Source: Candidatus Fermentibacterales bacterium (lineage in GTDB: Bacteria > Fermentibacterota > Fermentibacteria > Fermentibacterales > JAFGKQ01). Taken from it: a stretch of 12,585 bases of DNA. Under the pieces are notes generated by a model, which was given only the letters and a program-made list of their open reading frames with translations, did not search any database and was not told the origin of the DNA. Shown here one piece after another: positions 6,978-7,779 of the stretch (positions are counted from its first letter, which is position 1; each line of letters opens with the position of its first letter). The DNA lies in NCBI GenBank assembly GCA_016928495.1, contig JAFGKQ010000116.1:1-12585 (forward strand), given 5' to 3'. A program made the position numbers and the translations under genes.

Positions 6978-7115
6978 GGGGACACTGAGATAAGGGGACA
7001 CAACACTTATCTCGATGACGAGACAGCCTGGCTCGACAGACTGCCATTCCCGGGGTCGTGCGCGGGGACAGGCGTGCCCGAACAGCCTCGGCGAGATAAG
7101 TGTTGTGTCCCCCTA
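6974..7115. repeat. Small inverted-repeat element (REP/MITE-like) at the lyase stop codon
   Basis: Two 24-base arms, 6991-7014 and 7092-7115, are inverted copies with one mismatch; the inner 21 bases (GGGGACACAACACTTATCTC plus G) match perfectly. A 77-base spacer separates them. The first 12 bases of the left end (ATAAGGGGACAC) also occur just outside it, at 6974-6985 and 6990-7001, and the lyase TAA stop (6975-6977) is part of the outer copy. ACAGCCT occurs inside both ends (7023-7029, 7082-7088). There is no ORF, no transposase and no visible target duplication. Ends of this GGGGACAC type remind me of repeats that travel with REP-associated (Y1, RAYT) transposases, but that is from memory. 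As RNA it would form a long hairpin and could act as a terminator between the convergent genes. Confidence 0.7.
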
Positions 7116-7121
7116 ATTGCA

Positions 7122-7147
7122 GAGGGCGGCCGTTGCCGGTCGCCCTC
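7122..7147 (-). terminator. Possible terminator hairpin after the RRM gene
   Basis: An 11-bp stem (7122-7132 with 7137-7147, one G-T pair) closes a 4-base loop, 18 bases beyond the RRM stop codon. The minus-strand continuation is TCTGCAATTA, not a real T-run, so termination would be inefficient or rely on the long hairpin of the neighbouring repeat. Confidence 0.4.
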
Positions 7148-7165: not shown

Positions 7166-7441
7166 CTATCGCCTGGGGCGCTCTCTCTCGCGCTCCCTTT
7201 CGGTGGCGTAGTCCACCCGGATGGTCCTGCCATCCAGTTCGGTCTCGTTCATCGCCTCCAGAGCAGCGCCGGCATCCTCCTTCGTCTCGAAGGTTACGAA
7301 GCCGAAGCCCCGCGACCTGCCGCTGTTCCGGTCCTTGATGACCCTGGCCTCCCTGATCTCACCGAACTCCGAGAAAGCCTCGCGAAGAGACTCATCCGTC
7401 GTCCCCCAGGACAGGCCACCGACAAAGAGCTTGTTAGTCAA
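7166..7441 (-). CDS. RRM-domain RNA-binding protein
   Basis: 91 aa, TTG start at 7441-7439, with AGGAG (7452-7448) 6 bases before it. It is a single RNA recognition motif of the small bacterial Rbp / glycine-rich-protein type: RNP2 is LFVGGL (residues 5-10) and RNP1 is RGFGFVTF (44-51), including the aromatic positions that stack on RNA bases. The C-terminus is a short Arg-Glu repeat (RERERER, then RPRR) instead of the glycine-rich tail of some relatives. Such proteins bind single-stranded RNA in the cytoplasm and are often linked to cold response or mRNA handling. The gene stands alone, with a recognisable promoter about 210 bases upstream and a hairpin-rich leader, which points to control at the RNA level, possibly by its own product. 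Confidence 0.92.
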
Positions 7442-7650
7442 GGCACGCTCCTACTCACAGGGGCTTAGGGCCCCTCCAGAACCGGGCTGAGCCCGGCGCT
7501 CCGGTTGCCCGGAGCCGTTCCCGGCTTTCACGGCGCCGGCCGCCGGGCCTTTCGGCCGCTTCTGCACGAATCAGAATCTCTTGGCACTGGGGGGAACGCG
7601 TCTCTGATAGGAGCTCGTGCCGGACCCAGACGCAAGACACCTGAATCTGA
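7442..7650 (-). promoter_or_regulatory. Long structured 5' leader of the RRM gene
   Basis: About 209 bases from the predicted RNA start (7650) to the TTG start. Reading the transcript 5' to 3' there are five closely set hairpins: GGCC-GAAA-GGCC (7557-7546), AGCCG-GGAA-CGGCT (7526-7513), GCTCCGG-GCAA-CCGGAGC (7515-7498), CCGGGC-TCA-GCCCGG (7496-7482) and GGGGC-CCTAA-GCCCC (7474-7460). The first three have GNRA loops, and the second and third share bases, so they exclude each other. GCTCCTA (7614-7608) is an exact complement of TAGGAGC (7453-7447), which contains the ribosome binding site. No known riboswitch or thermosensor class is recognised. The high GC content makes some stems expected by chance. 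Confidence 0.5.
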
Positions 7651-7656
7651 GCCGGC

Positions 7657-7684
7657 ACTATACCTGAAACCGGCTGGACGTCAA
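7657..7684 (-). promoter_or_regulatory. Sigma-70 promoter of the RRM gene
   Basis: TTGACG (7684-7679) and TATAGT (7662-7657) with a 16-base spacer; each box matches the consensus at five of six positions. The RNA start is expected near 7650. Confidence 0.65.
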
Positions 7685-7702
7685 GGGGAAAGCACCTTCC
7701 CC
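7685..7702. promoter_or_regulatory. Inverted repeat next to the RRM -35 box
   Basis: GGGGAA-N6-TTCCCC is a perfect 6-bp inverted repeat directly abutting the upstream side of the TTGACG box at 7684-7679. Position and symmetry suit a dimeric regulator. There is no known consensus to compare it with. Confidence 0.3.
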
Positions 7703-7779
7703 GGCAGACCTGCGCGGAGTCCTGCAAGGGGGGCGGTCACACAGACAGACCGGAACGGTCTTCTTTCTCCTTCTGTCGG

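Follow-up and report, generated by a model that had tools for sequence, protein, structure and literature searches.

The RRM protein gene of the window (the whole stretch of 12,585 nucleotides analysed here) is preceded by a structured 5' leader (7442..7650, minus strand) whose homologues precede RRM genes only. Comparison with relatives showed that the leader and its stems are conserved, that its association with RRM genes is exclusive, and that P4, a hairpin segment in its 5' domain, is apparently matched to the region of the ribosome binding site (RBS). We put at roughly 60% the probability that the leader exerts translational control, most likely through autoregulation by the RRM protein, with P4 forming its own hairpin or else pairing with the RBS.

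Gene, promoter and architecture of the leader

The RRM gene (7166..7441, minus strand) starts with TTG and encodes 91 aa, consisting of a single RRM and a short Arg/Glu-rich tail (Pfam RRM_1, E 1.8e-27). Three RRM genes are present in the window's genome (2.3 Mb, 81% complete). Upstream, on the same strand, the promoter (7657..7684) is composed of TTGACG (7684-7679), a spacer of 16 and TATAGT (7662-7657), an arrangement found once against 0.2 expected. TTGAC at the -35 place was kept ahead of all homologous leaders printed (15/15), and TTGAC(A) together with the -10 element was conserved ahead of homologous leaders. Since TTGAC is kept ahead of all 15 homologues, the RNA would start near 7650, about 209 bases before the TTG codon, as a sequence-only reading of this DNA had proposed. 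That reading had named an RNA start adjoining TTG as evidence against itself; the conserved promoter appears instead to adjoin the 5' end of the leader. No intrinsic terminator or attenuator was found within the leader. A coding role of the leader was rejected because small ORFs within the leaders vary in place and length.

On the other side of the gene, between the RRM gene and an aromatic amino acid lyase gene, we observed an element of about 140 bases (6980-7122) with 20-base inverted ends (GGGGACACAACACTTATCTC ... GAGATAAGTGTTGTGTCCCC). Its arms are found again on four further contigs (C299, C301, C74 and C34) and the genome encodes a Y1-type transposase, so the element may be REP- or MITE-like.

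The leader is made of two parts, both on the minus strand. Domain 1 (7568..7647), which rests on covariation and covariance model matches, comprises P1 (GAUUCAG 7647-7641 with CUGAUUC 7574-7568), P2 (UCUUG 7637-7633 with CAAGA 7583-7579), P3 (CUGGG 7629-7625 with CCCAG 7591-7587) and the P4 hairpin CUC[CUAUCA]GAG (7602..7614; CUC 7613-7611, GAG 7604-7602), which holds the anti-RBS segment GCUCCUAUCA (7614-7605). This domain, which carried our whole-genome searches, was absent as a unit from the sequence-only reading. Five hairpins in series, which had been recognised there, follow as P5-P9. P5 (GGCC-GAAA-GGCC, 7546..7557) had 90.5% of cells paired and three pairs changed on both sides, with a loop that varies in relatives; P6 (CCGGC ... 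GCCGG, 7521..7539) and P7 (GCUCCGG ... CCGGAGC, 7498..7515) had 100% of cells paired, with two pairs and one pair changed on both sides, respectively; and P8 (CCGGGC ... GCCCGG, 7482..7496) had two such pairs. P9 (AGGGGC ... GCCCCU, 7459..7475), whose covariation was tested as helix 5 of the P5-P9 array, lies directly 5' of the RBS, and a hairpin-like inverted repeat at its place precedes the RBS in most of the listed RRM leaders of families f1-f3. The RBS region itself, UGAGUAGGAGC (7447..7457, minus strand), has GGAG at 7451-7448 and is the partner of P4.

Some details of the sequence-only reading did not survive the comparison. The three GNRA loops are present in the window sequence but not conserved, as the P5 and P7 loops of orthologues read AUUCG, AUUAU or similar, and GNRA loops as tertiary contacts were rejected for the same reason. 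The argument that two of the hairpins overlap and exclude each other also failed: the GGAA hairpin is not conserved, and the conserved one of the pair is P6 (7539-7521). RNAalifold, applied to alignment A1, paired UCAGG...UUCU over a long range with the RBS and the start codon; this pairing competes with P1 and has few compensatory changes, and was likewise rejected. The leader folded moderately better than shuffles (z -2.2); as this single-sequence energy was unconvincing, relatives were needed.

Homologous leaders and covariance model searches

RRM genes were collected from 60 related genomes and their upstream regions were aligned; among the genomes compared here, the order is the whole phylum. 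When the leader alone was compared as DNA, the best outside match (E 6.8e-6) lay directly ahead of the RRM gene of another genome, G003, and the remaining outside matches all had E > 0.01. About 24 leaders, drawn from families f1, f2 and f3, share a common plan: the 5' end is G(A/G)UUCAG or a variant, there are mutually pairing blocks, and hairpins continue down to the RBS. Most of these leaders place a CUC-N4..7-GAG hairpin at 32-40 nt, counted from the 5' end. Variants of P1 seen by eye were UGGUUCGG with CCGGUGCC (L065) and UUG..UCAG with CUGA..CAA (L078), and a variant of P3 was ACGGGG with CCCCG (L077).

A covariance model of the 5' domain, R1, was trained on 12 leaders of f1 and f2, and the leader of the second RRM gene of the window's genome (C315) was kept out of the training. 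Over 42 whole genomes, R1 recovered the training leaders and the C315 leader (E 0.002), which was the sole further match in the window's own genome; one further match (E 0.17) lay in G007, on a contig other than that of its RRM gene. Searched against 100 loci (232 kb, 28 of them non-RRM), R1 gave 16 matches, all of them RRM leaders and four of them untrained. Three f3 leaders were found by R1. The 16 matched leaders were used to build a second model, R2, which added four RRM leaders at weak scores. R2 had no match in the 28 control (non-RRM) loci, nor in RRM loci of other phyla (L105-L121). Over the 42 genomes, all of its matches at E <= 0.1 (16/16) precede RRM genes, each with E < 1e-8 and placed where an RRM leader begins, while the same place in G007 scored E 0.64. 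Such an exclusive tie to RRM genes (16/16 in 42 genomes) is expected for a cis-acting leader. Judged from sequence, the leader is conserved ahead of RRM genes across the order, at the same position relative to the promoter.

Covariation of the stems

In domain 1, 87.4% of cells were paired versus 34-53% in slid registers, and 27 cells were changed on both sides versus 11.5 +- 2.7 in shuffles, figures taken from alignment A5, which was fitted to the covariance model and favours the model's own pairs. For P5-P9, the plain MAFFT alignment A1 gave 95.5% of cells paired versus 32-50% in slid registers and 18 double-changed cells versus 4.8 +- 1.8 in shuffles, the structure tested being derived from A1's own consensus. 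Because shuffles ignore relatedness, a tree-based null was added, in which substitutions were re-dealt along FastTree trees. It gave 11.3 double-changed cells for domain 1, where 1/500 replicates reached the observed 27, and 8.1 for P5-P9, where 11/500 reached the observed 18. The observed number of paired cells was reached in 0/500 for both parts, and the double-change score in 0/500 for domain 1 and 1/500 for P5-P9. Compensatory changes, which the sequence-only reading had proposed to look for in related leaders, were found above column-shuffle, slid-register and tree-based controls. As far as sequence shows, domain 1 and P5-P9 are conserved with such changes, so that the lack of conserved stems, which it had named as refuting, did not occur. 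The three stem pairs of P4 are invariant; as they never vary, covariation does not test the P4 hairpin itself.

The P4 segment and its predicted pairing with the RBS

The complementarity of GCTCCTA (7614-7608) to TAGGAGC (7453-7447), on which the earlier idea of an anti-RBS sequence was based, was confirmed. GCUCCUA falls within P4, in its 5' arm and its loop. In the window, the duplex with the RBS, flanks included, has about 10 pairs and one bulge (about 10 plus 2), and the anti-RBS segment outranks every other 13-base segment of the window leader as a partner of the RBS region. The P4 segment was the best RBS partner in the whole leader in L008, L015, L009, L016, L067, L063, L065 and L021 as well, and tied as the best in L077. 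It was among the best 13% in L006 and the best 8% in L005, in both of which another segment beats P4; the complementarity was weak and not notable in L023, L072 and L078, and the P4 pattern was not found in the leaders of L011 and L071. The duplex reached 14 pairs with one bulge in L008 and 12 pairs with one bulge in L063; examples are CGACUCAUUUCUGAG with CUCAGAAAUGGAGUU and UCUCCUUUCAGAG with CUCUGAAACGGAG.

The energy of P4-RBS pairing was -12.5 kcal/mol with the own RBS region versus -10.0 kcal/mol with foreign ones (p 0.002, from the small number of 12 lineages, by a permutation that ignores the tree). The preference for the own partner had p < 0.05 only in registers overlapping P4, and flanking segments gave no comparable signal. 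A two-sided change was observed at the last loop base, where L008 has U opposite A and L063 has A opposite U. In several lineages the anti-RBS segment has changed in step with the RBS region. The invariant CUC of P4 is expected if CUC must match GGAG. The P4-RBS pairing and the P4 hairpin are mutually exclusive, and as the RBS lies outside P1, the former would make a pseudoknot when P1 is formed.

It is unlikely, though far from negligible, that the conserved folded leader serves mRNA stability or provides a ribosome standby site, with the P4-RBS match as a by-product of a CUCC-type hairpin. Such a role would agree with an array P5-P9 that has no obvious alternative pairings, with the three to four pairs by which CUC necessarily matches GGAG, and with the lack of good P4-RBS pairing in some lineages. 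However, a by-product would not account for a preference of P4 for its own RBS region that is seen at the P4 place only, nor for a matched stretch that extends past CUC/GAG in L063 and L008 (12-14 pairs).

Discussion

Our preferred reading is that of translational control by alternative pairing of P4. Transcription would begin near 7650, and the first ~80 nt would form an elongated domain, with P1 as its closing stem and the P4 hairpin at its tip; five more hairpins (P5-P9) would follow and end directly 5' of the RBS. The P4 segment would then either form its own CUC/GAG hairpin or pair with the RBS outside P1, giving a masking pseudoknot. Binding of a factor, likeliest the RRM protein itself in a negative autoregulation, would shift the balance of P4. 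That the RBS is masked in cells, that the leader switches and that its ligand is the RRM protein are inferences. Among possible ligands the RRM protein comes first, because the element stands only ahead of RRM genes and, by analogy, because RbpB, an RRM protein of Bacteroides, binds its own mRNA (PMC11697453); in principle, the ligand could be any factor or metabolite. The leader probably tunes how much RRM protein the cell makes.

We think it rather improbable that the leader responds to temperature in a cold-shock-like manner, opening or closing without a protein. Rbp1 of Synechocystis, a related cyanobacterial RRM protein, is required for cold adaptability (PMC9333190), and the predicted RBS exposure was somewhat higher at 10 C than at 37 C in the window (0.01 to 0.19) and in L063 (0.06 to 0.24). 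However, other leaders had no consistent change in predicted exposure, for which the energy parameters are unreliable at such a level. Since the predicted exposure did not rise markedly on heating, a classical heat-melting thermometer is not favoured; the temperature switch that the sequence-only reading had thought plausible is weakened in that form, while some other temperature control could still operate.

A metabolite riboswitch that precedes RRM genes by happenstance is very improbable. A compact domain at the 5' end and an expression platform close by may resemble a riboswitch layout, but riboswitches usually precede several gene kinds of one pathway, whereas in the 42 genomes searched this element was confined to RRM genes, and it had no Rfam match. 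Chance stems in GC-rich DNA without any functional RNA, which had earlier been held likely and with which the moderate fold z-score would agree, are hardly credible against the conservation, the covariation over three kinds of control and the model matches confined to RRM genes.

The claim that the leader fits no known RNA class was upheld by the Rfam search suggested with it. No family matched in the window, and the leader region gave only chance-level scores at relaxed threshold; weak matches (Transposase-2, M23 and others) were far below gathering scores and were rejected. Ribosomal-protein leaders are structured leaders on the mRNA of an RNA-binding protein, whose product may bind and block translation. 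The window leader shares with them the principle of a structured leader on such an mRNA, but its gene encodes an RRM protein, and no relation in sequence or structure to them (e.g., the candidates in PMC7247131) was found. The closest analogue among named classes is Chlorobi-RRM, listed by Weinberg et al. (2010; PMC2864571) among RNAs that are probably structured and cis-regulatory. It is a conserved structured RNA ahead of RRM genes, as the window leader also lies directly upstream of one, and a match to its family (RF01697) lies upstream of the Chlorobium sp. N1 RRM gene. However, the window leader is not a member: Chlorobi-RRM has 73 positions versus about 210, occurs in another phylum and has different stems, and RF01697 had no match in 7400-7720 up to E 10. 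By eye, about 100 bases before the RRM genes of L109 (Thermodesulfobacteriota) and L111 (Deltaproteobacteria) were Chlorobi-RRM-like, with a GGCCAAU... hairpin and GUAAUU...GUUAC, below the Rfam threshold. The rbpB mRNA of Bacteroides thetaiotaomicron is similar in being bound by its own RRM-1 product, with autoregulation suggested; it belongs to another phylum, and a conserved leader structure of the window kind is not reported in the excerpted account (PMC11697453). The window leader, as a putative cis-acting leader of an RNA-binding-protein gene, is confirmed as a conserved structure.

Other RRM genes of the order have leaders of different folds. Those of genus g8 (alignment A6, L091-L103) occupy the final ~110 bases upstream of RRM genes, which often stand in tandem. 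They have a covarying hairpin at the 5' end and, immediately upstream of the RBS, a pseudoknot, GUGUCGUC/GAUGACAU; 92.4% of cells were paired (97.3% in the pseudoknot helix), with 35 double-changed cells versus 9.3. The leader of the second g2 RRM paralogue (A7) is a hairpin array, 94.6% paired with 7 double-changed cells versus 1.4. Both kinds resemble the window leader in being folded, standing ahead of RRM genes and ending at the RBS, and neither matched R2. We also observed that in leaders of the second g2 paralogue (L020, L024-L028, L068-L090) the RBS lies inside a possible GAAC-AGGA-GUUC hairpin and a GGUAC block is nearly invariant. The RRM gene copy of L101 (minus strand, start near 782) carries an internal TGA stop, and the g8 pseudoknot ahead of it looks degraded by eye, so that the gene seems to be decaying along with its leader.

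Tentatively, and at somewhat less than even odds, we suggest that the window leader represents an RRM-protein-sensing class in which the P4 tip and the RBS form an evolving matched pseudoknot, and that the order has several unrelated leader folds (the P1-P9 leader, the g8 pseudoknot and the g2 paralogue array) for autoregulating paralogous RRM proteins. Bacterial RRM proteins are widespread while their own regulation is hardly known, and the sole named leader class met here was Chlorobi-RRM. A second class of RRM leader with an explicit RBS-masking segment would make autoregulation directly testable, and the leader offers a natural RNA ligand for learning what bacterial RRM proteins recognise.
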